The position numbers and the translations under genes were made by a program. 64,000 bases of DNA from positions 28,966 through 92,965 of IMG/VR virus record IMGVR_UViG_3300033149_002985. The stretch is one strand, 5' to 3'. Positions within the stretch are counted from its first letter, which is position 1, and every line of letters begins with the position of its first letter. The notes beneath the pieces were generated by a model that ran no database searches, was not told the origin of the DNA, and was given only the letters and a program-made list of their open reading frames with translations. Of this stretch, positions 16,190 through 62,704 are shown piece by piece. The DNA is from a virus.

Positions 16190-16317
16190 TATTGTTTATT
16201 TCCTTTTTTATTATTAGAAAGAGCTTTAACATATGACCATTCATTATATGTTTTTTGAGGAAATCCATTTTCTTTTAATTCTTTAGCTATTGCTAAATCT
16301 ACTGTATATTCTTTCAT
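16189..16317 (-). CDS. Small protein, KELKENGFPQ type
   Basis: A 42-residue protein with LAIAKELKENGFPQKTYNEW. This KLKE-x-GFPQ pattern is common in small phage proteins of unknown function. It is tightly coupled by single-base overlaps to genes on both sides. Confidence 0.65.
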   Translation of the reverse strand: MKEYTVDLAIAKELKENGFPQKTYNEWSYVKALSNNKKGNKQ

Positions 16318-17042
16318 GATTGTCCTTTTGGTTTTTCATCGTTCAAAATTGTTTTTTTATATAAATGACCAGAAGCTGTGTGATAGATACAAATTCCCTC
16401 CGCATTCATAAAACCTGGAACAGCTTTACTTCCTTCCATTTTTAAACGCATTAAAATAGTATCAATTGTAATAGTATTAAACATCCCTTCATATAAAATA
16501 GGAACAACTTTACAGCATTTTGGAGCGGGGGAAGTATATTTTTCTTCTTTTGTTTTAGAGTTAATACTAATTAATCTTTTCTCTTTATTATGTTGATGCC
16601 ATTTTTTAACATTAAATAATGCAAGTCTTTTTTCGTCTAATCCATAATTTCTATTTATTCCTTTACCGTAAAATTCTCCAAAATGCCTCCCTTTTCCTAG
16701 TTTGAGAAGTTCTTCTGCGTTTTCTTTAACCCATCGAGCAAAACCATGATTATCACAATTTTTTCCGCTATCTACCGAAAGCCATCTTGTACGAGAACCA
16801 GCAAACATATATAAAATATCATTTTCATCCGTCATTGCGAGTGTTTTATAAAGACAATATTTATCAATAAATTCTTTCATAGCTTCATCTGTGCCTACTC
16901 CTTGATTCCATTCAGTAAAAAATGAATTATGTAAATCTTGTCTACGCATAATAACAATTTGTCCATTAGTTCCATCAATTTTTTCGCTGATTACTATATC
17001 TCTACTTAATCGAGGTATTTTATTAAATTTTTGGAATTCCAT
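16314..17042 (-). CDS. RNA ligase (nucleotidyltransferase superfamily)
   Basis: A 242-residue protein. Residues 19-28 (SEKIDGTNGQ) contain the KxDG adenylation motif, with Lys21 as the AMP acceptor. Later motifs follow in order: GRHFGEFYGKGINRNYG (motif III region), AEGICIYHTA (motif IV) and HLYKKT (motif V). The order and length fit the Rnl2/DRB0094 RNA-ligase-like family, which seals breaks using ATP. Phages use such enzymes to repair tRNA cut by host defences. A good AAGGAG site precedes the ATG. With RtcB at 61053, this phage has two ligase types. Confidence 0.8.
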   Translation of the reverse strand: MEFQKFNKIPRLSRDIVISEKIDGTNGQIVIMRRQDLHNSFFTEWNQGVGTDEAMKEFIDKYCLYKTLAMTDENDILYMFAGSRTRWLSVDSGKNCDNHGFARWVKENAEELLKLGKGRHFGEFYGKGINRNYGLDEKRLALFNVKKWHQHNKEKRLISINSKTKEEKYTSPAPKCCKVVPILYEGMFNTITIDTILMRLKMEGSKAVPGFMNAEGICIYHTASGHLYKKTILNDEKPKGQS

Positions 17043-46834: not shown

Positions 46835-46993
46835 CTAATATATAATCATCGTATCTGAATTTGAAACCTGTTCTTTATAGGAGTTATGATTAGCTTCTGC
46901 TTTTTGAATTCTTTCTTTATCACCTGAGAGCCTTGCTTCTCCTAGTTCTTTTGCATACATCATGAGTGTTTTAAAAAAAGTAACGGTTTTCAT
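46835..46993 (-). CDS. Small helical protein
   Basis: A 52-residue protein (VTFFKTLMMYAKELGEARLS). Overlaps the peptidase start by four bases. Unknown. Confidence 0.55.
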   Translation of the reverse strand: MKTVTFFKTLMMYAKELGEARLSGDKERIQKAEANHNSYKEQVSNSDTMIIY

Positions 46994-48069
46994 TTTTCTA
47001 TTACACTCCTCAATTTAGATGATAATAAGAAATTAGTTAATAATTTTGTACCTGATAATAAATCACCAAAATTAATAGTTTCAACGGGCGTATGCATTGA
47101 TCGTAGAGGTATACCCATAACTAAAGCCCTTATTCCTTTAGCCTCTCCTGTCATATCAACAGAAGTATAACCTACATTATCATAACATGCTTGGTATTGT
47201 ACTTTCACTTTACTATTTTTTGCTACATTTGTCATTAAATTTAAAGATGGCTCGTGAATCCCTAATCCTCTATATAGTGTCATTCCTTTTCCAAGATGAC
47301 ATTTACCAACTTCCAAATCCATATCTGAACCTTTTCCGTAATCGGTTGCAAAGGTCACATCCGCTTCAATAATTAAATCTGGTTTATGTTCCCTAACAAT
47401 GGGGCGTAATTTACTTGTTCCTGTTTCTTCTTGTGAACTAAACGTAAATATTAAATTAACAGGTGGTTTTTTCTTACTTGCTACTATTTGTCTGATTGTT
47501 TCTAATAAAATAAAACAGCCAGATTTATCATCAAAGCCGTATCCTGCATAATAATTGTTAACTAATTGATGAAATGATGGCTTATAAACTACAGGATCTC
47601 CTATTTTTACATGTCTAGATACTTCTCGACGTTTTCGAATTCCAATATCAACTTGTGCATCAGCAATACTAACAATGGTTTCATTGTCTTCATCATTGAC
47701 TAAGTGTGCATGCTTTCTGTTTACAACCGCATTAATATTTCCTTTGTTACCCAAAATAGTTAAATGGCGTGCACTAAGAATTGAATTGTCACCACCGCCA
47801 ATGTAATTAATGCTAATATATCCCTCATCGGAAATGTTAGTAACCATAAAACCGATTTCATCGGCATGAGCATCTATAATTACTGTTCTATCAGTTTTTC
47901 CTGGAATTGTTGCAATAACATTTTTTTGAAAATCTATTTGTACCTTAGATTTAGGTAAAAATTTCAACAGTTCTTGTCGAATAAAACCAGCAATATCATC
48001 CTCAAATCCAGATGGAGAAGGTATCTCTATCAAGGATCGTAATAAATTAAGTTGTCTATTTGTTCGCAT
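46990..48069 (-). CDS. M42-family metallo-aminopeptidase
   Basis: A 359-residue di-zinc peptidase. VIIDAHADEIGFMV (63-76) has His68 and Asp70, YGFDDKSGCFILLE (177-190) the bridging Asp, SSQEETGTSK (211-220) the catalytic Glu pair, IEADVTFATDY (234-244) an Asp ligand, and RSMHTPVETI near residue 330 the final His. The full set fits the PepA/FrvX group, which removes N-terminal residues and assembles as large shells. Such a gene is unexpected in a phage. It heads a run of peptidase genes. Confidence 0.9.
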   Translation of the reverse strand: MRTNRQLNLLRSLIEIPSPSGFEDDIAGFIRQELLKFLPKSKVQIDFQKNVIATIPGKTDRTVIIDAHADEIGFMVTNISDEGYISINYIGGGDNSILSARHLTILGNKGNINAVVNRKHAHLVNDEDNETIVSIADAQVDIGIRKRREVSRHVKIGDPVVYKPSFHQLVNNYYAGYGFDDKSGCFILLETIRQIVASKKKPPVNLIFTFSSQEETGTSKLRPIVREHKPDLIIEADVTFATDYGKGSDMDLEVGKCHLGKGMTLYRGLGIHEPSLNLMTNVAKNSKVKVQYQACYDNVGYTSVDMTGEAKGIRALVMGIPLRSMHTPVETINFGDLLSGTKLLTNFLLSSKLRSVIEK

Positions 48070-48081
48070 AATCTCTCCTTT

Positions 48082-48210
48082 TTATACCCAAAATAACATA
48101 GCATTAACTATAGTTAAAAGAACTCCTATGAATTTTAATTTAAGAGTTGGGGCTTGAATTGATACTCCAAAATATCCTATTAACATTAACCAGTAAAATA
48201 ATTTATACAT
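48082..48210 (-). CDS. Small membrane peptide
   Basis: A 42-residue, strongly hydrophobic frame with two helices (LFYWLMLIGYFGVSIQ; KFIGVLLTIVNAMLFWV). It overlaps the next membrane-protein gene by eight bases. Confidence 0.55.
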   Translation of the reverse strand: MYKLFYWLMLIGYFGVSIQAPTLKLKFIGVLLTIVNAMLFWV

Positions 48211-48469
48211 GATTTTTCCTTATATCCTTTTTCTTCCAACAAAAAATTGCTTTTATGTTCAATAATATTAATAATGAAGATAACACAAATAAACTAGGAA
48301 TAACTAGCATTAAACTTTGAATAATATACATAAAATTGCCTAAAATATTTGCATAAAATCCTTTAATATTTTTATTTCCTATCATACAAATACCCCATAG
48401 AAAAAATATATTACCTATCCAACCTGCAATATCAGGAATATTATCAATGTAAGATGAAAATATATTCAT
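48203..48469 (-). CDS. Three-span membrane protein, semiSWEET/PnuC-like layout
   Basis: An 88-residue protein with three hydrophobic helices (IAGWIGNIFFLWGICMIGNK; ANILGNFMYIIQSLMLVIPS; LFVLSSLLILLNIKAIFCWK). The GxxxF, GN and N positions recall small transporters of the semiSWEET or PnuC type, but this is only a resemblance. Sits among peptidase genes. Confidence 0.5.
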   Translation of the reverse strand: MNIFSSYIDNIPDIAGWIGNIFFLWGICMIGNKNIKGFYANILGNFMYIIQSLMLVIPSLFVLSSLLILLNIKAIFCWKKKDIRKNHV

Positions 48470-49032
48470 TATTTTGGCTTTTTCTTGTAATATCCTTGTT
48501 GTAATCTATTCAATAAAGTAATTAAATTTATAGGTGTATAATTAAGATGTTCGGCACTAACATTAATAAATGTACATCTTCTTTTCTTTTGAATAAATGG
48601 TGTTGAATTATGTTGATGTCCATGAATCACATAATGATATTTAGTTAAATCTGGAGTTTTTACATCATGAGGACTATGAACAAATAAAATTTTCTTGTTA
48701 TTAAAATCCCACGAAAAAGTATCACAAATAAAATCAATTCCATGAGTCAAATACCAAGAATATGTTTTACGATCATGATTACCATGCACAAGAATTTTAC
48801 GTCCATTTAAAGTCATAATAATTTTTGCAATCTCTTGGCTCGTTCCTTTTGTGAATACCAAATCACCAACAATTATAACGATATCATGTGGTCTTACTAT
48901 CGTATTCCATCTTTTAATTTGTGTATCGTCCATATGTTTAAGAGATTTAAATCCTCTATTACATAATTTATTAACATTCCAATCATTGAAATGAGAATCA
49001 CTGATGATATATATATTTATTAAAGGTTTCAT
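48469..49032 (-). CDS. Calcineurin-like phosphoesterase
   Basis: A 187-residue protein. YIISDSHFNDWN (8-19), IVIIVGDLVFTKG (about 51-63), KILVHGNHDRKTY (about 79-91), ILFVHSPHD and YVIHGHQHNSTP carry the metal ligands in order. A compact phosphoesterase related to bacterial small-phosphoesterase proteins; the substrate is not known. It starts one base from its neighbour. Confidence 0.85.
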   Translation of the reverse strand: MKPLINIYIISDSHFNDWNVNKLCNRGFKSLKHMDDTQIKRWNTIVRPHDIVIIVGDLVFTKGTSQEIAKIIMTLNGRKILVHGNHDRKTYSWYLTHGIDFICDTFSWDFNNKKILFVHSPHDVKTPDLTKYHYVIHGHQHNSTPFIQKKRRCTFINVSAEHLNYTPINLITLLNRLQQGYYKKKPK

Positions 49033-49042
49033 ATTTTCTTTT

Positions 49043-49693
49043 CTAAAACCATACCCAAATAAGTAAAGGAATTTGAATTAGTAATAATATCCAAAAACAA
49101 ATCTTAGTAATTATAGTATATCTTTTAATAAATTTTTCTTTCCATATTTTTTCCATTAACACTAACCATAAATGACCTCCATCTAAAGCAGGAATAGGTA
49201 AAATATTTGCAATAGCACAGAAGAAATTAAGCAATCCTAATTGTAAAAGTGTAAAATTTGCACCAACATTATTAGATGCAAGAAATAATATATCCATATT
49301 CGTATATGTTTTTACAAATGTAGATTTAATCAACATCCAATCTATTTGCATTCCGATTAAGATTGATTTATAATTTATCAAATAACAAATACAAGCTATA
49401 ATAAAATTAACTGCGATACCTGCTATAAGGATTAAAAATTTCTTAAAATATTTTTGATTTAGAAAATCATCAGAACATTTTTTTGAATCCATTCCTTTTA
49501 AATCACAATATCCTCCTATTAACCAAGGACTTATTCTATAATCAATCCCTTTAATAGTTTTATGTAAATAAGGTTTCCAAAATCCTACTGAAAAAGTTTT
49601 TACTCCAACTCCACATTTTAGCGCAACAAGCATATGTGCTAGTTCATGGATGAAAATTGTAAATAATAAACAAGCAAAAAATTCGAACCACAT
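49043..49693 (-). CDS. Site-2-type intramembrane metalloprotease (M50)
   Basis: A 216-residue, four-span protein. TIFIHELAHMLVAL (12-25) contains the HExxH zinc site (His16, Glu17, His20) within the first helix. AGIAVNFIIACICY (91-104) is the conserved second segment. NILPIPALDGGHL (163-175) holds the NPxPxxDGG-type motif with Asp171. No PDZ domain is present. M50 proteases cut membrane anchors of regulators. Its ATG overlaps the S1 protease stop. Confidence 0.88.
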   Translation of the reverse strand: MWFEFFACLLFTIFIHELAHMLVALKCGVGVKTFSVGFWKPYLHKTIKGIDYRISPWLIGGYCDLKGMDSKKCSDDFLNQKYFKKFLILIAGIAVNFIIACICYLINYKSILIGMQIDWMLIKSTFVKTYTNMDILFLASNNVGANFTLLQLGLLNFFCAIANILPIPALDGGHLWLVLMEKIWKEKFIKRYTIITKICFWILLLIQIPLLIWVWF

Positions 49694-50430
49694 TAATTTT
49701 CCTCAATTTCTTTCTCGGTTTTTTCTTCGATTGGATCGGGAATATTTTTAAAAGTATTAACTTTTTCAGAATATTCAATGTCTAATAATTCAGAAATATC
49801 TTCTAAAAAATCTCTTATATCTGAAGTTGGTTCATATAGAACAATTTCTTCTTTATAAGTATCAAATCCGCCCCATAAAACCCCAGTTAATTCTGATTGG
49901 TTATTAAAAATTCCACCACCAGAACAACCGCCACGACTATTTAAATATGCAAAATGATCTCTATCTGTTTTTCTATAAACTACTCCAGAGGATAAATATT
50001 GATGTCCTTCTGGATATCCCAAATGATGAATTTCTTGATCTAAATATGCAGTATATTTTGATAAAACTGCTACTTTTTTATTTTTAATCATACCATCAAC
50101 TATTACATAAGCCAAATCATCTGTTGTAGAAGTAATAATTAATCGTGCTTTCTTATGATCGACATAGAATTCTTCGGTTCGATGAATACAATGTTTAGCA
50201 GTTAATACATGATGATTACCTTTGACTTCATTTATAATAGTGCCACTACAAGAGCCAAGTCTAGCATCACCAACACTAAAAAATTCTACTGTTATTTGTT
50301 CTAATTCTTTTTTTAAACTTTGAGTGCCACTGTAAACAGGTTTTTTTTCACCAAATAAAATAGACAAATCAAATTGGGGTGTTATAATAGCTATAGCAAA
50401 TATCATTAAATAAGATAATAATTTTTTCAT
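49693..50430 (-). CDS. Secreted trypsin-like serine protease (S1)
   Basis: A 245-residue protein. Residues 1-26 form a signal peptide or membrane anchor (LLSYLMIFAIAIITPQF). The catalytic triad is His80 in VLTAKHCIH, Asp105 in STTDDLAYV and Ser170 in SRGGCSGGGIF, with oxyanion GxSGG. The C-terminal 40 residues are acidic and disordered. It overlaps the deformylase gene by four bases and the M50 gene by one. Likely acts outside the cytoplasmic membrane, perhaps as a site-1 partner of the M50 protease. Confidence 0.85.
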   Translation of the reverse strand: MKKLLSYLMIFAIAIITPQFDLSILFGEKKPVYSGTQSLKKELEQITVEFFSVGDARLGSCSGTIINEVKGNHHVLTAKHCIHRTEEFYVDHKKARLIITSTTDDLAYVIVDGMIKNKKVAVLSKYTAYLDQEIHHLGYPEGHQYLSSGVVYRKTDRDHFAYLNSRGGCSGGGIFNNQSELTGVLWGGFDTYKEEIVLYEPTSDIRDFLEDISELLDIEYSEKVNTFKNIPDPIEEKTEKEIEEN

Positions 50431-50891
50431 AATTGCTCCTTTATTCTATCTATAAAAAGAATCCCATCCCAATGATCTAATTCATGTTGTACAACGATAG
50501 CTTCATAACCAGAAAATGTAAGAATTTCTTCATCTCCATTTTTTATTAAAATCCAATTATAGCGCATAGTATCTTCAAATTTTCCTGGTAAGGATAGACA
50601 ACCTTCTCCTTTAAACATTCCTAATTGTTTTTTATTCAAGATTTTTGCATTATAAAGATTATAAGAATTTAACTTTTTTTCTTTTTTTCCAAATCGTTTA
50701 TAAGTTTGTTCTATTCGTATTACTGTAACTTGATAAGGAATACTTATTTGAATAGCACTTAATCCACTTCCTTTGACTTTATGAGTAGATAACTCATGAT
50801 CTAAACAATCAAAAAGAGATTGTAATTCTTCTTTCGTACCTTTGAAAGATTCACTTACTTGTCTCAATGTTTCTAAATTTTCAGTTATCAT
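50427..50891 (-). CDS. def: Peptide deformylase
   Basis: A 154-residue protein with all three PDF motifs: GSGLSAIQ (41-48), GEGCLSLPG (95-103) and VVQHELDHWDG (133-143). Cys98, His136 and His140 bind the metal and Glu137 is catalytic. It would remove N-formyl groups from new proteins. Motif I differs (SAIQ for AAPQ), as in some phage enzymes. Phage deformylases are known from marine cyanophages. Confidence 0.92.
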   Translation of the reverse strand: MITENLETLRQVSESFKGTKEELQSLFDCLDHELSTHKVKGSGLSAIQISIPYQVTVIRIEQTYKRFGKKEKKLNSYNLYNAKILNKKQLGMFKGEGCLSLPGKFEDTMRYNWILIKNGDEEILTFSGYEAIVVQHELDHWDGILFIDRIKEQL

Positions 50892-51469
50892 TTATTTTTC
50901 CTTTTTCTAGCAATAAAATCAACTACTCCTTTTGCTTTAGCTTCATTAGCCCATAAATGAAGTTCTGTATTTTTAGATTTTTCTATATCGTCGTTGGTTA
51001 AACAGGTACGAGATTTTATATATTTTTCCATCATTTTTCGTCTTGGTTTAATATATTGAGACATTCTTGCCTCTTCTTTTCCAACCCAATCACCGCCACT
51101 ATCTATCCAAAGATCGTGAATCATCCAATATGAGTGCTCTGTTATAACCCGTTTAGATCCTGCAAGGGAAATTAGAGCACCCATACTTGAAGCCGCCCCA
51201 TTTATAAAAGTATAAACAGGAGATGCTAATCCAAAAATAGTGTCAATAATAGCAAAACCACAGTCAACCGAACCTCCGACAGAGTTAATCCAGAGACCAA
51301 TTGGTTCATTGTTTATTTCATTTAAACCAATCAAATCTTCACAGACCCGTTTGCCCATATTCACATCTATTGTACCATGTAACAGGATATTTCTTGAGTG
51401 TAATAAGAGTTGAGGTATATCTATCTCATATTCTAATTTGTCAAATTTATTTTTGTCTTTTTCAGACAT
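50888..51469 (-). CDS. clpP: ClpP-like serine protease
   Basis: A 193-residue protein with IGLWINSVGGSVDCGFAIID (57-76), INGAASSMGALISLAG (89-104; Ser95 nucleophile) and YWMIHDLWID (114-123; His118). The usual Asp position near ELHLWANEAKAKGVVDFIA reads ELH instead of RDx, so the third triad residue is uncertain. Phage ClpP homologues usually mature capsids, but no capsid gene is nearby; it may work with host chaperones. Sits next to the deformylase gene by a four-base overlap. Confidence 0.85.
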   Translation of the reverse strand: MSEKDKNKFDKLEYEIDIPQLLLHSRNILLHGTIDVNMGKRVCEDLIGLNEINNEPIGLWINSVGGSVDCGFAIIDTIFGLASPVYTFINGAASSMGALISLAGSKRVITEHSYWMIHDLWIDSGGDWVGKEEARMSQYIKPRRKMMEKYIKSRTCLTNDDIEKSKNTELHLWANEAKAKGVVDFIARKRKNK

Positions 51470-51478
51470 TAAAACTCC

Positions 51479-52006
51479 TTATTTTTTGACGTTAGTCAAC
51501 CCTCTTTGATAAATAGCATCGATAACATCATTAATACTATTTAAATCAACTTGTCCAGTTAATGCTTTAACAGCTTCACAAGCAGAAGCATAAACACTCA
51601 ATCTCATAATCTGAGCACTTTCTTTTGGAGTTTTGGGATTCATATAATTTTTTGCTGGTGCAGGTATTCCAGTTGATACAGGAGGTACATACGTCTGTTG
51701 TACTTGCTGATTAACAGGAGGCGTATATGGCTGTTGTGTTACTGGTGCAGATTGGGGTTGTTGATAACCCTGTGGAGCTCCGCCTGCTGGTTCAATTCGA
51801 CTGACATTATATTTATTATTTACAAAATCAGCAGTTAAAATAACAGCTTGACCTTCCTGAAATGCTTTGCTTGCAAAATTTTTAACATTTTGCGGACAAT
51901 CTGCCCATTCGCCTTCAGGTTTACGACCTGGAATAATAACTTTAATCATTTCACATCCTGGCTTTTTTGCCGACCTAATAAATTGTGCTTGTACTTGTTG
52001 ACTCAT
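51479..52006 (-). CDS. OB-fold-like protein, possible ssDNA-binding
   Basis: A 175-residue protein. The N-terminal part (AVILTADFVNNKYNVSRIEP) is beta-rich and OB-like. A Pro/Gln-rich linker (about 78-125) follows, then a conserved helical tail (MRLSVYASACEAVKALTGQV). The layout, folded N-terminus plus flexible linker and C-terminal tip, recalls single-stranded DNA-binding proteins. Role inferred, not proved. Confidence 0.6.
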   Translation of the reverse strand: MSQQVQAQFIRSAKKPGCEMIKVIIPGRKPEGEWADCPQNVKNFASKAFQEGQAVILTADFVNNKYNVSRIEPAGGAPQGYQQPQSAPVTQQPYTPPVNQQVQQTYVPPVSTGIPAPAKNYMNPKTPKESAQIMRLSVYASACEAVKALTGQVDLNSINDVIDAIYQRGLTNVKK

Positions 52007-52020
52007 AATTATTCTCCTTT

Positions 52021-52872
52021 TTAATTTTTACTTAATGATTTTTTGGCTTCTCTTTTTTTCTTTGCCTTATCCTTAATTTTTTTCTTTTTGTTCAATGCTT
52101 TTTTAACACTTTGTTCATAAGTAACTATCTTCGATTTATCACTATAAATTTCATTGTATTTATCACGCATTTTTTGAAAAGGTAATAAAGAAATATTGGG
52201 GACTTTGTAATTAACTAGTTTGAGTTTTTCTATTACTGAATTTTCAACCCAATCTGGGAGCTTTGTTAAATCCATTATTAATCGCCGATCATCATAATCT
52301 TTGGTATTTATAATTTCAGATGTAACCTGATCTTTTGCTTCTTTTTTAATTTTCTTGGAAAGTAATTTATAGATATCAAAATTATCTGGTTTGATTTTAT
52401 ATCGTTTTAATTTTTTGTGGGGGGAAAAGATTTTTACATTGTCATAAATCCAAAGTTGTTCCATGTCGCAATCTGAGCTAATAATAATAATGTCTTTATT
52501 TGTAAAAAATCTACTAGCTACAGAAGCTATATCATCAAATTCAAGATGGTCTAATAATATTACATGCCATTCCGTAGCCATTTGTATTTTGGCAAGAAGT
52601 TCATTAAGTTCTTTATATATTTCGGTAGGTAATTTTGCTCTGCCTTCTTTATATTCCGTAGAATATTGTTTTCTCCAGCTAGAATAATCATCTCCATGAA
52701 AATCAACCCCGACAATAACAGTGTCTTCGGGTTCAATTCCAACTTTCATTAAATCACTAATCATCATATTTAAACAAGTGTATGACACAGGAAGTCCTGG
52801 ATTGGCAACAGCACACCATCCAGAAGCATGTAAATAATATCCATAATCCATAACAATAACTTTATCTTTCAT
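52021..52872 (-). CDS. FEN/PIN-type 5'-3' exonuclease (RNase H-like)
   Basis: A 283-residue protein from ATG 52872. IVGVDFHGDDYSSWRKQYST (about 53-72), YKEGRAKLP, LLDHLEFDDIASVASRFF (about 105-122) and IIISSDCDMEQLW supply the Asp/Glu cluster of flap endonucleases (T4 RNase H, T5 exonuclease group). It removes RNA primers or flaps. The C-terminus is very basic (KKKIKDKAKKKREAKKSLSK). Confidence 0.85.
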   Translation of the reverse strand: MKDKVIVMDYGYYLHASGWCAVANPGLPVSYTCLNMMISDLMKVGIEPEDTVIVGVDFHGDDYSSWRKQYSTEYKEGRAKLPTEIYKELNELLAKIQMATEWHVILLDHLEFDDIASVASRFFTNKDIIIISSDCDMEQLWIYDNVKIFSPHKKLKRYKIKPDNFDIYKLLSKKIKKEAKDQVTSEIINTKDYDDRRLIMDLTKLPDWVENSVIEKLKLVNYKVPNISLLPFQKMRDKYNEIYSDKSKIVTYEQSVKKALNKKKKIKDKAKKKREAKKSLSKN

Positions 52873-52891
52873 CAAAAACTCCTTAAAATTT

Positions 52892-55688: not shown

Positions 55689-56297
55689 TTATTCTTCTGC
55701 TCTTAATTTATTAATAATCTTTTTAGATTCTTTGCTTGATATAGACTTAGAAATTTCTGCCATCATATCATCTGCGCCTTGTTGATAAATTTTTCTTTCT
55801 ACGTCAGAATATTTATCACCGTTGCTTCGAATATATCTTTTACCTTTAGATATACCTCTTACTAAATCTCTTGCAACTCTTCCAGTGCCTCTTATAAGAC
55901 TAAAAATTGCACCAATAACCCAACCAAAACCACTCAAAGAAAGAGCTATCATTATAATAATTCCCCATAACACATAACCTTGAACATTTAAAATAAACTG
56001 TGAAATTTTTTCACGCCATCTTAATTTTCTTTCTTGTTGGTTAAAAGTCTTTTCATACGAATAATAATTTTGTCCGCATTTCAGAACTCTTCCCATAGAA
56101 TCTAAGATAATTTCTCCTTTACATTTGATCCTTTTTTCTGATTTTTCAATTTTTTCGGGAACTTTTGAAACGGTATTTTTGAAAGGTTGGGAAGCAATTT
56201 TAAGGAGGGAACAGCCTGTTAATGTAGACATAAAAATACATAACATCATTAATTGCAACATGTTATGCTTAAAAAGGTGGTAAATTTGATTTTTCAT
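55689..56297 (-). CDS. Lipoprotein with internal membrane span
   Basis: A 202-residue protein from ATG 56297. Residues 1-28 are a signal ending in a lipobox (TLTGC, Cys29). Residues about 102-133 are a long hydrophobic segment (YVLWGIIIMIALSLSGFGWV). A basic linker and helical C-terminus follow. One lipid anchor plus one membrane span is like unimolecular spanins, but here the span is internal, so that is only a possibility. First gene after a strong promoter. Confidence 0.65.
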   Translation of the reverse strand: MKNQIYHLFKHNMLQLMMLCIFMSTLTGCSLLKIASQPFKNTVSKVPEKIEKSEKRIKCKGEIILDSMGRVLKCGQNYYSYEKTFNQQERKLRWREKISQFILNVQGYVLWGIIIMIALSLSGFGWVIGAIFSLIRGTGRVARDLVRGISKGKRYIRSNGDKYSDVERKIYQQGADDMMAEISKSISSKESKKIINKLRAEE

Positions 56298-56428
56298 CAA
56301 TTATCCTTACGTTTATGATGTAACTATATATAAATAAATAAGTTAGCAGAAAACTAGTGATAATATTAAAGACCTTTATTCTTACCTCTCGGAACGGTCA
56401 AAATGTGACTAGATTTTGCACTACTATA

Positions 56429-58653: not shown

Positions 58654-59439
58654 TTATTTTATCTTTTTTAAATATTTTTTCTTTAATTCTTCTGTGCATA
58701 TTTTAAGATATTTTTGAGTAGATTTTAAATTTTTATGCCCAAGAAGTTTTTGGATTTCTGGAAGACTAAATCCTTCTTTTAATAACCATGTTGCAAACGA
58801 ATGACGCAATAAATAAGGTCGTAAATTAAAATCAGGAAAATGTTTTTTGATTTTTTCACACATTCTTCCTAATGCTCTTGTCGTGGTATTAAAAGCATTG
58901 GTTTTTTCATATTCCAAAATAAAATATATCTTCATTAAATCACTTACTTTTTCTGGAAACAGAAAAATATGTTCAGTTTTTGTTTTTTGCCTATAAATCT
59001 TTCCCTGTAAATTTTTTAAATCAAAGTTTTTCCTTTTTAAAGCAACAATTTCACCTGGACTTAATCCACTATAAAAAATTAAATAAAAAATGGCTATAAT
59101 TTTTTCATTTTTTCTCCAATTTTGTTTAATAATTGGAACAATTTCTTTTTCAAATTGTTCGATAGTAATAGCATCTACCAATTTTTCATCTTCATCTAAT
59201 GCTGGAGGCATTTCAATATCTATTTTTTTCCATTCTATATAAGCACAAATAGCATTTCGATAACAATTGATTGTTTTATTTACATGTGTTCCTTGTAATC
59301 CAAGTAAATATCTATCTACAGTTTCTTTAATAACGACATTATTAGTCGCTTTTAAAAAATCTCTTATCCTTTGACAATATCCTCTTCGAGTATTATGAGA
59401 TCGTCCTTTTAATTTTAACCAATCATTAAAATTATTCAT
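58654..59439 (-). CDS. Tyrosine recombinase (integrase/XerC-like)
   Basis: A 261-residue protein. Residues 1-75 are a SAM-like core-binding domain. The catalytic part has IFYSGLSPGEIVALKR (121-136), QKTKTEHIFLF (151-161), RPYLLRHSFATWLL (207-220; Arg212), LLGHKNLKSTQKYL (232-245; His235, nucleophile Tyr244). The position of the first catalytic Arg (GLR) reads GLS, so catalysis may be impaired or rerouted. Roles could be integration, dimer resolution or end processing. No attachment-site pair was found beside it. Confidence 0.85.
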   Translation of the reverse strand: MNNFNDWLKLKGRSHNTRRGYCQRIRDFLKATNNVVIKETVDRYLLGLQGTHVNKTINCYRNAICAYIEWKKIDIEMPPALDEDEKLVDAITIEQFEKEIVPIIKQNWRKNEKIIAIFYLIFYSGLSPGEIVALKRKNFDLKNLQGKIYRQKTKTEHIFLFPEKVSDLMKIYFILEYEKTNAFNTTTRALGRMCEKIKKHFPDFNLRPYLLRHSFATWLLKEGFSLPEIQKLLGHKNLKSTQKYLKICTEELKKKYLKKIK

Positions 59440-61052: not shown

Positions 61053-62315
61053 TTATCCTTTCACAACAGCTAATGGTTTTAATTTCACTACAATATCTAC
61101 TAAATCTTTTTGTTCTTCCATAATAACATCAATGTCTTTGTAAGCACTCGGAGCTTCATCTAAATTAGATTTATGTCGAACCGAATGGATAATCCCTTGA
61201 TCGTTTAATAATTTTTGTTCATCTTCTAAATTTAATTCGTTTCGTGCTTTCTTTCTACTCATTTTTCTACCTGCACCATGAGAGCATGAGGTAAAGGACT
61301 CAATATTTCCTTTCCCCTTAACAATATAAGATGATGTACCTTGTGAACCTGGAATAATACCTAATTCTCCTTCTTTAGCACTTGTAGCACCTTTTCTATG
61401 AATCCAAACATTTTTTCCAAAATGATTTTCTAACGAAGCATAATTATGATGGATATTGATTTCCTGTTCAAATTCTAATATTTTAGTTTTATTGAAATTA
61501 TGCACAACTTTAACAGTATTAAAACAAACTTTAATATCTAAGGCTTTACAAAATGCTTTTTTAATATTCTCTAACATATGTAATCTATTTGCATAGGCAA
61601 ACTCTAAACAATAATTCATTTCTCGAAGATAATTTTCGGCTTCTTTAGTTCCTATCGGAAGAAAAGCCAACCCATCTTCCCCTTTATATTCAGGGATATT
61701 TGAATGCCATTGTTTGCATAAATCCTGTGCTAATTTATTATAATGTTTAGCTACTTTATATCCTAAATTCCTACTTCCTGAATGGATCATTATCCAAATA
61801 AACCCATCATCTCCTTTTTGGATTTCTATAAAATGATTTCCACCACCTAATGTTCCTAACTGTTTTAAAGCCGATTTATATTCTTGTTCACAAATACTAA
61901 CATGTTCGCCTGTTTCATAACTTAATTCTATAATCTTCGGCATTAAAGATTCATTTTGAGCCTTTTTATGATGATTAAATCCAACAGGAATTAAACCTCT
62001 TATTCCTCCCTGATTTTCTTTAGAGCCACCTAAAATTGCTTTTAATTGTTCTGTTGATATCTCCTTCAAACTCGTTTTAACTGCACACATACCACAACCG
62101 ATATCAACCCCTACTGCATTAGGAATAATAACACCATTAGTAGCAATAACTCCTCCTATCGGCATTCCATAGCCTTGATGTACATCGGGCATTAATGCTA
62201 TATGCCTATAAATAAAAGGAAGAGAAGCCAAATTTCTAGCTTGATCTAAAGCCCCTTCTTCTGGATTATTACACCATGATTTAATAGGCACATTTTTGCC
62301 TTCAATTATTTTCAT
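61053..62315 (-). CDS. rtcB: RtcB-type RNA ligase
   Basis: Start set at MKIIEGKNVP (62315), after AAGGAGTAATAAA; a longer frame is rejected. The 420-residue protein has LMPDVHQGYGMPIGGVIA (41-58), GVDIGCGMCAVKT (69-81; Cys74 metal ligand), LGTLGGGNHFIEI, WIMIHSGSRNLGYK and SCSHGAGRKMSRKKA, whose His is the guanylylated residue. RtcB joins RNA 2',3'-cyclic phosphate to 5'-OH ends with GTP. It could repair tRNA cut by host anti-phage nucleases. Confidence 0.93.
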   Translation of the reverse strand: MKIIEGKNVPIKSWCNNPEEGALDQARNLASLPFIYRHIALMPDVHQGYGMPIGGVIATNGVIIPNAVGVDIGCGMCAVKTSLKEISTEQLKAILGGSKENQGGIRGLIPVGFNHHKKAQNESLMPKIIELSYETGEHVSICEQEYKSALKQLGTLGGGNHFIEIQKGDDGFIWIMIHSGSRNLGYKVAKHYNKLAQDLCKQWHSNIPEYKGEDGLAFLPIGTKEAENYLREMNYCLEFAYANRLHMLENIKKAFCKALDIKVCFNTVKVVHNFNKTKILEFEQEINIHHNYASLENHFGKNVWIHRKGATSAKEGELGIIPGSQGTSSYIVKGKGNIESFTSCSHGAGRKMSRKKARNELNLEDEQKLLNDQGIIHSVRHKSNLDEAPSAYKDIDVIMEEQKDLVDIVVKLKPLAVVKG

Positions 62316-62704
62316 TTTATTACTCCTTCTATACATGCCCGATATTCCATATCTACTGTTTGATCTATTGAACCTTTGGAAACAATAATACCAAGCCATT
62401 TATTAAGTTGTTGTTTTGTAATCCATTCTTCTGAGTCTTCCCTATTAGGAAACCAAGCAAAAGACCATGCTTTAGGAGGTATCATATCCAATTGTCTTTG
62501 TCTTTGTTTTTTGCGTTCTTTAAATGCCTTCTTTATAACAGATACCCCTAAGAAGTCAAGATACCCTAAACATTTAATCCCTATATCAATACCTCGTGCA
62601 GGGGCTTCAAAATGTGAGATTGTATGGCTTCCTTTACAATATTTAACTTTTAATCCTCTGCGAATTAGTTTTTTAACTATAACTTCTCGATCAAAGTTTG
62701 ACAT
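62312..62704 (-). CDS. Protein of unknown function upstream of RtcB
   Basis: A 130-residue protein (DREVIVKKLIRRGLKVKYCK; GSHTISHFEAPARGIDIGIK; FAWFPNREDSEEWITKQQLN). Basic and mixed alpha/beta. Its TGA overlaps the RtcB start, so the two are coupled. The family is not recognised. Confidence 0.6.
   Translation of the reverse strand: MSNFDREVIVKKLIRRGLKVKYCKGSHTISHFEAPARGIDIGIKCLGYLDFLGVSVIKKAFKERKKQRQRQLDMIPPKAWSFAWFPNREDSEEWITKQQLNKWLGIIVSKGSIDQTVDMEYRACIEGVIK

Follow-up and report, generated by a model that had tools for sequence, protein, structure and literature searches.

A tailed phage encodes an S1-family serine protease and an M50 intramembrane metalloprotease in adjacent genes that share one base. 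Both are known enzyme types, found here in an unusual stripped form, in an unusual bearer, and repeatedly paired. The M50 protein is an RseP-type core without its PDZ gate, and fold and profile support assigning the S1 protein to the DegS/HtrA type. We tentatively propose, as something a little short of an even chance, that the pair, coupled in one gene run with a ClpP homolog, forms an ungated module for the two-step proteolysis of membrane proteins. Many relatives of this uncultured virus carry the simplified enzymes as well. Bacteria employ enzymes of these two kinds in succession to relay alarm signals across the cell membrane, which suggests that the phage may degrade or rewire membrane proteins of its host.

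The protease pair closes a four-gene coupled run

The window analyzed here is a stretch of 64,000 nucleotides, bases 28966 to 92965 of a 92,965-base virus record. The record encodes tape-measure, tail-fiber, and virion proteins as well as phage DNA replication genes. It is a tailed phage, and host contamination is ruled out by the spread of phage structural and replication genes throughout. The two protease reading frames lie exactly where the original prediction had placed them, with the one-base overlap that it described, in the following neighborhood (window coordinates).

52021-52875, minus strand: 5'-3' exonuclease
51479-52006, minus strand: unknown protein
50888-51469, minus strand: ClpP-like serine protease, 193 aa (E = 3.6e-30), overlapping the PDF start by 4 nt
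50427-50891, minus strand: peptide deformylase (PDF), 154 aa (E = 5.2e-27), overlapping the S1 start by 4 nt
49693-50430, minus strand: S1-family serine protease, 245 aa (Trypsin_2, E = 1e-7; structure model; invariant triad)
49043-49693, minus strand: M50 site-2-type intramembrane metalloprotease, 216 aa (Peptidase_M50, E = 3.8e-35; structure model)
48469-49032, minus strand: calcineurin-like phosphoesterase, 10 nt downstream of M50
48203-48469, minus strand: small membrane protein
between the small membrane protein and the M42 aminopeptidase, minus strand: 42-aa ORF
46990-48069, minus strand: M42 aminopeptidase, 359 aa (E = 1.5e-58), transcribed the same way

The S1 stop and the M50 start have one base in common, in the sequence TAATG. 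Together with the 4-nt overlaps between ClpP and PDF and between PDF and S1, this makes S1 and M50 the last two genes of a coupled run of four, and a purine-rich, Shine-Dalgarno-like stretch precedes each of the four starts. Chance or miscalled reading frames are ruled out by the ORF calls, Pfam scores, and conserved residues; conservation and Pfam scores put both proteases far beyond chance. The alignment of the window ClpP shows that the Ser and His of the triad are kept and that the Asp position is Glu, and the protein also matches head maturation protease families.

A promoter scan returned 41 sites versus 49.9 expected and was uninformative. The primase of the phage had no match in the phage collection, and its DNA polymerase was matched only distantly. 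Elsewhere, the window encodes a tyrosine recombinase (58654-59439, minus strand), relatives of which occur in all seven M50 records compared. An RtcB-type RNA ligase (61053-62399, minus strand) and a second RNA ligase (16314-17042, minus strand) are present in this one phage.

Both proteases are cores without PDZ domains

The M50 protein scored above the gathering cutoff of Peptidase_M50 (PF02163; 121.7 versus 27.2 bits, E = 3.8e-35). It has four hydrophobic segments, the motifs HELAH (residues 16 to 20) and LDGG (170 to 173), and no PDZ insert. Residues H16, E17, H20, and D171 were invariant in all 16 aligned phage M50 proteins, the alignment covering 16 of 19 M50 records with G066, G067, and G068 omitted. 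An AlphaFold model built from 14 phage sequences (pLDDT 89.1, pTM 0.85) contains strands at residues 31 to 65, between the first two long helices, which are taken to correspond to the membrane-reentrant beta-loop of RseP (PMC4597795, in part). When the model was searched with Foldseek, all six PDB matches at E ≤ 0.001 were RasP/RseP, and structural realignment among the matches listed gave Z scores of 16.5 to 17.4 for RseP/RasP, 10.2 for M. jannaschii S2P, and 9.1 to 9.3 for SpoIVFB. The family profile gave E values of 1.5e-39 for RseP versus 0.005 for SpoIVFB. The NCBIfam RseP cutoffs were missed (TIGR00054, 99.8 versus 147.55; NF008046, 58.7 versus 477).

The PDZ tandem is missing from the M50 protein, where phage residues 115 to 147 cover residues 128 to 371 of Kangiella RseP in the alignment (about 32 versus about 243 residues). 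Phage M50 proteins are 191 to 240 aa long (16 of 16). A genome scan gave 80 cellular M50 loci, and the 78 ORFs that matched the phage profile all measured 333 to 593 aa. The eight cellular M50 rows shown have the halves of their match split by a stretch that the phage proteins lack; in cellular row L073, the profile positions of the two parts overlap. The RseP-like fold and profile, the missing PDZ tandem, and the longer cellular relatives thus identify an RseP-type core that has no gate.

The S1 protein scored above the gathering cutoff of Trypsin_2 (PF13365; 33.3 versus 27.6 bits, E = 1e-7). It consists of a helix at residues 2 to 19, which is an N-terminal hydrophobic anchor or signal peptide, a trypsin/HtrA-fold domain at about residues 35 to 217, and an acidic C-terminal tail. 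The triad H80/D105/S170 showed no variation among the 27 phage S1 proteins aligned, which come from 24 records; the alignment omits G063, G068, G079, and G071, the last being near-identical to G038. Ser170 and Glu17, singled out in the original prediction as residues of S1 and M50, respectively, are correctly named.

The S1 AlphaFold model (22 sequences; pLDDT 87.3, pTM 0.78) is a two-barrel protease. After structural realignment, the nearest solved structures among the matches listed were DegP, DegS, DegQ, AlgW, and Rv3671c (Z scores of 22 to 24); the comparison with DegS-deltaPDZ (2qf0) gave a Z score of 23.5 and an rmsd of 2.2 over 175 aligned residues. Identity to DegS/AlgW-type structures in the structural alignments was 16 to 24%. 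The family profile matched HtrA at E = 3.3e-28 and DegS at E of about 4e-23. As a plain sequence on its own, the window S1 was nearest to V8 glutamyl endopeptidase (8e-4), not DegS, and V8-like Esp ranked first when the model was searched with Foldseek. The window S1 had no HtrA or DegS match in NCBIfam; the S1 proteins of two relatives matched NCBIfam DegS below the cutoff. A link to defense systems was considered and dropped, the search having matched nothing but the general trypsin domain, and that weakly.

Hydropathy revealed an N-terminal hydrophobic core in 28 of 28 S1 proteins, with basic residues ahead of it in 27. Judged by eye, the N terminus resembles a cleavable signal peptide in G036, whereas in G038 and G039 it suggests an anchor with a helical linker behind it. 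From these sequence features, the protease domain is predicted to be extracytoplasmic, in agreement with the original prediction, which would have been contradicted by a cytoplasmic S1 protein. Just 44 to 75 residues follow the catalytic Ser in all 28 proteins, which is too little room for a PDZ domain. The structure comparison proposed in the original prediction placed the S1 model with DegP, DegS, and AlgW and the M50 model with RseP (Z score of about 17). The idea of a DegS-like and RseP-like pair is therefore borne out by fold and profile, but to call it exactly such a pair was an overstatement. Neither protein has the PDZ domain of DegS or RseP.

Gene order and co-occurrence in related phages

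S1 is the hub of the gene order. M50 comes immediately after it, on the same strand, in five records (the window's own, G037, G041, G042, and G049); the two genes overlap by 4 nt in G042 and G049, and the order in G042 is S1-S1-M50. S1 and M50 lie within 2.5 kb of each other, with PDF between, in G043, G047, and G001. They are far apart in 10 of the 17 primase-set records (defined below) that have both, for example by 20 kb in G003. G046, which is sister to three M50 carriers, keeps a ClpP-S1-PDF run without M50. ClpP adjoins S1 or sits one or two small ORFs upstream of it in G041, G042, G043, G045, G046, G047, G053, and G076, and also in G037. Among the M50 records, 6 of 7 have ClpP and 5 of 7 have PDF; among the other records, the counts are 4 of 33 and 0 of 33, respectively.

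Two different S1 genes stand in tandem in G042, G045, and G053, the latter two without M50. A 211-aa five-TM protein beside PDF in G045 (L293:2672-3307, minus strand), with no Pfam match, is a candidate M50 replacement; some relatives carry M50 at that place. We take the lineage to be rich in peptidases, with M42 in the window and, in relatives, an M17-like protein (L004:5655-6578), an M16-like protein (L057:5036-6190), and an M14-like protein adjoining S1 (L138/L139), these last three named by eye. Possible inteins were seen in a 1094-aa DNA polymerase ORF that contains an insertion (L005:2624-5908) and in a 1014-aa primase ORF (L300:7244-10288).

The first set of genomes comprised the window's own record and 35 records related to it by RtcB or DNA polymerase, and M50 and S1 both occurred in the same 3 of these 36. 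The RtcB and DNA polymerase relatives (co-occurrence 0 of 33) were discarded as an unfair control, many of the records being short or distantly related. Scans of viral contigs with the single M50 and S1 sequences gave no matches. A scan with an alignment-based M50 profile gave six loci, four of them in new records, and S1 was present in all seven M50 records known at that point. Clustering the ORFs of these seven records yielded eight families present in all seven, S1 among them and M50 by construction.

A less biased set comprised 48 of 79 primase loci (the first 47 listed plus L215), the 31 weaker loci lying outside it. M50 was present in 18 of these 48 records and S1 in 27; 17 had both, and 20 had neither. 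The association was strong by Fisher's test with kinship ignored (P = 4.8e-5); leaving out the 6 records that had initially come to light through M50 gave P = 1.4e-3. Among the 23 records of at least 40 kb, including the window's own, 11 had both genes, none had M50 only, 7 had S1 only, and 5 had neither (P = 0.037). The only record in the primase set with M50 and without S1 was G067, a 24-kb fragment. S1 occurred without M50 in 10 of 27 S1 records (G040, G045, G046, G048, G051, G053, G063, G070, G071, and G079), six of which span 44 to 90 kb (G045, G046, G048, G053, G070, and G079). Loss of one gene without the other in close relatives had been named beforehand as evidence against a functional pair. 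The outcome was divided: the S1-only records speak against a pair, and the presence of S1 in 17 of 18 M50 records speaks for one.

On a primase tree of 47 rows, from which the short rows G078 and G080 were dropped, at least 11 changes are needed for M50 and 6 for S1. Ancestry-controlled pairs were concordant in about three cases, opposed in none or one, and without difference in five or six (median P = 0.25). With so few independent changes, the association is not significant once ancestry is controlled, and it is possible that it arose through shared ancestry. G069 and G075 are without both proteases, and their respective sisters, G081 and G042, carry both. These absences are soft because the records of relatives are fragments or of unknown completeness. 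The asymmetry, in which M50 comes with S1 and S1 often comes without M50, is weakly consistent with a site-2 partner, given the fragments and the few events. The S1-only records indicate that S1 has a job of its own.

A proposed model of ungated two-step proteolysis

In the model that we favor, S1 would act at the outer face of the inner membrane, either as an anchored or as a released enzyme, and clip the extracytoplasmic part of its targets. M50 would then cut the leftover transmembrane stub, and the cytoplasmic fragments would pass to a Clp protease, which could be host ClpXP or the phage ClpP working with host ClpX. That S1 and M50 would act in this sequence on shared substrates is suggested by their folds, predicted topology, and co-occurrence. 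ClpP is attractive as a third step, but it has Glu in place of the catalytic Asp, and phage ClpP-like proteins may be head proteases. The likeliest targets would be single-pass host or phage membrane proteins, a host anti-sigma factor being one candidate among several. No sigma or anti-sigma gene was recognized among the proteins scanned.

Because both phage enzymes lack PDZ gates, the cascade would probably be constitutively active and, during infection, would need no envelope-stress signal to operate. Going by the title of a 2003 report by Walsh et al., DegS is said to be held off by its own PDZ domain. Efficient cleavage of RseA by Escherichia coli RseP requires prior trimming by DegS, the PDZ tandem of RseP serving as a size filter, and ClpXP carries out the last step of the RseA pathway (PMC10202637 and PMC8144685, each in part; the PDZ role in RseP is also treated in the available part of PMC4597795). 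RseP with its PDZ domains disrupted cuts RseA without site-1 cleavage (PMC10202637, in part), and dependence of the phage M50 on S1 therefore cannot be assumed. The PDZ-less SpoIVFB needs no site-1 protease partner, according to the available text of the same review.

Associated membrane proteins and alternative roles

A membrane-anchored protein with one or two hydrophobic segments near its N terminus, TM224 (alignment A8), was found in 16 of 49 records (G001, G037, G038, G039, G041, G043, G045 to G048, G051, G053, G070 to G072, and G076). Every one of these bears S1, so that TM224 is present in 16 of 28 records with S1 versus 0 of 21 without it (P = 9.5e-6, ancestry ignored). Phe is the last residue in 15 of the 16 proteins, and 10 of them end in aromatic-x-Phe. 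Such Phe-type C-terminal endings resemble those of outer membrane proteins, and by this analogy the TM224 ending would suggest a two-membrane host. A gene for an MgtC-like membrane protein adjoins S1 or lies near it in G003, G036, G051, and G081, sharing 4 nt with the end of S1 in G036 and G051; it occurs in further records as well and was found in 13 of 28 S1 records versus 1 of 21 others. Possible roles for TM224 are a spanin-like one, that of a substrate, and that of triggering host DegS.

These associations bear on a reading in which the pair controls phage membrane proteins, setting lysis timing, remodeling envelope proteins (holin/spanin-like, MgtC-like, or TM224), or destroying the small membrane lysis proteins of superinfecting phages. 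In keeping with it, overexpression of RseP blocks lysis by Sgl-PP7, for which the authors invoke Sgl-PP7 degradation (PMC10229422, in part). However, TM224 and the MgtC-like gene track S1 rather than M50, both are absent from the window's own record, and their association with S1 may reflect shared ancestry. We regard this reading as unlikely, if worth keeping in view.

Substrates of the two-step module favored here were also sought among lipoproteins of the window, which the original prediction had put forward.

55689-56300, minus strand: LIPO, conserved lipobox protein, weakly supported as a substrate

LIPO has two conserved cysteines and a basic C-terminal tail; a second hydrophobic segment lies inside the protein, around residue 110. 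It matched no family above cutoff. It was found (alignment A9) in G000, G003, G036, and G069 and weakly in G040. Its presence in G069, which is without both proteases, weakens the case for it. Site-2 proteases generally cut type II membrane proteins (PMC8144685, in part), and the predicted topology of LIPO is not type II. No regulatory domain was recognized in TM224 or LIPO.

The peptidase genes around the pair would also fit the clearing of host proteins for amino acid supply, with S1 and M50 handling the membrane proteins and no signaling involved. ClpP, PDF, S1, and M50 are coupled with M42 downstream, ClpP and PDF are enriched in M50 records as counted above, and the M17-, M16-, and M14-like proteins of relatives point the same way. 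Against this, S1 goes with M50 more faithfully (7 of 7) than ClpP (6) or PDF (5) does, and site-2 proteases usually cut selected single-pass proteins and are ill suited to bulk degradation. Such a role seems improbable to us, though not far-fetched.

A special case of the favored module is reprogramming of the host, in which the pair, with ClpP for the third step, would act as a constitutive DegS-RseP on a host anti-sigma factor and free an ECF sigma factor. The nearest folds among the matches listed are DegS/AlgW and RseP, each of the three proteolytic steps in the RseA pathway has a homolog in one gene run, and the site-1-independent cutting of RseA by PDZ-disrupted RseP (PMC10202637, in part) would allow it. 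The scanned proteins yielded no anti-sigma substrate, S1-only records exist, and a ClpP with Glu at the canonical Asp could have another role; we consider this version quite unlikely. The lineage might also use a signal-independent copy of DegS-RseP-ClpP, both PDZ gates discarded, to activate a host extracytoplasmic sigma factor or silence an envelope defense whenever infection calls for it, and TM224 could then serve as a substrate made for the purpose or as an additional trigger of host DegS. We hold this to be decidedly improbable.

Finally, M50 might remove remnant signal peptides while S1 matures exported proteins, the two being neighbors since both act at the membrane, as RseP and its Gram-positive relatives process such remnants (PMC4597795 and PMC10202637, each in part), PDZ-less site-2 proteases can do without a site-1 partner (PMC10202637, in part), and S1 and M50 are frequently unlinked in the genome, but M50 is without S1 in just 1 of 18 records, unlike an enzyme with a stand-alone job, and we doubt this explanation strongly.

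Relation to known proteases

The phage M50 resembles RseP in its HExxH and LDG motifs, reentrant beta-hairpin region, four hydrophobic segments, profile match (1.5e-39), and Z score of about 17; it differs in length (216 versus about 450 residues) and in falling below the NCBIfam RseP cutoffs. PDZ domains define the group I site-2 proteases (PMC10202637, in part), and the phage M50 has none. Like DegS and AlgW, S1 has an N-terminal hydrophobic stretch, an HtrA-type domain predicted to lie outside, a full triad, and Z scores of 22 to 24; unlike them, it has no C-terminal PDZ domain, shares only 16 to 24% identity, and is nearest to V8 protease in plain sequence. SpoIVFB of Bacillus subtilis, which is regulated through SpoIVB and SpoIVFA and whose activity is linked to SpoIVB as a serine protease, is likewise an M50 protease without a PDZ domain. 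It differs from the phage M50 in having a CBS domain (PMC10202637, in part), and the phage protein matches it with a profile E value of only 0.005 and a Z score of about 9.

A natural PDZ-less site-1/site-2 pair would offer a compact test of the role of the PDZ gate, both cores being already stripped. Phages act directly on sigma factors and RNA polymerase. If the proposal is true, phage takeover of transmembrane signaling by proteolysis would be a different route from such direct action.

A search of the open-access literature found no work on a phage-encoded site-2 protease, and words beginning with "phage" or "virus" are absent from the main text, as available, of a 2023 review of bacterial site-2 proteases (PMC10202637). 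Phage M50 proteins are known as database entries. Fourteen phage records have an M50 match, none covering 80% of the query; 3 are annotated as RseP, and 11 are unannotated. The UniProt entries A0A6J5SMS1 and A0A6J5RHB6 (uncultured Caudovirales phage) are likewise tailed-phage proteins annotated as M50. A0A6J5SMS1 (184 aa) matches the M50 model at E = 1.6e-6 with TM scores of 0.53 to 0.60, and among the structure matches are three viral entries with M50 or SpoIVFB as their name, of which one reached E ≤ 0.001.
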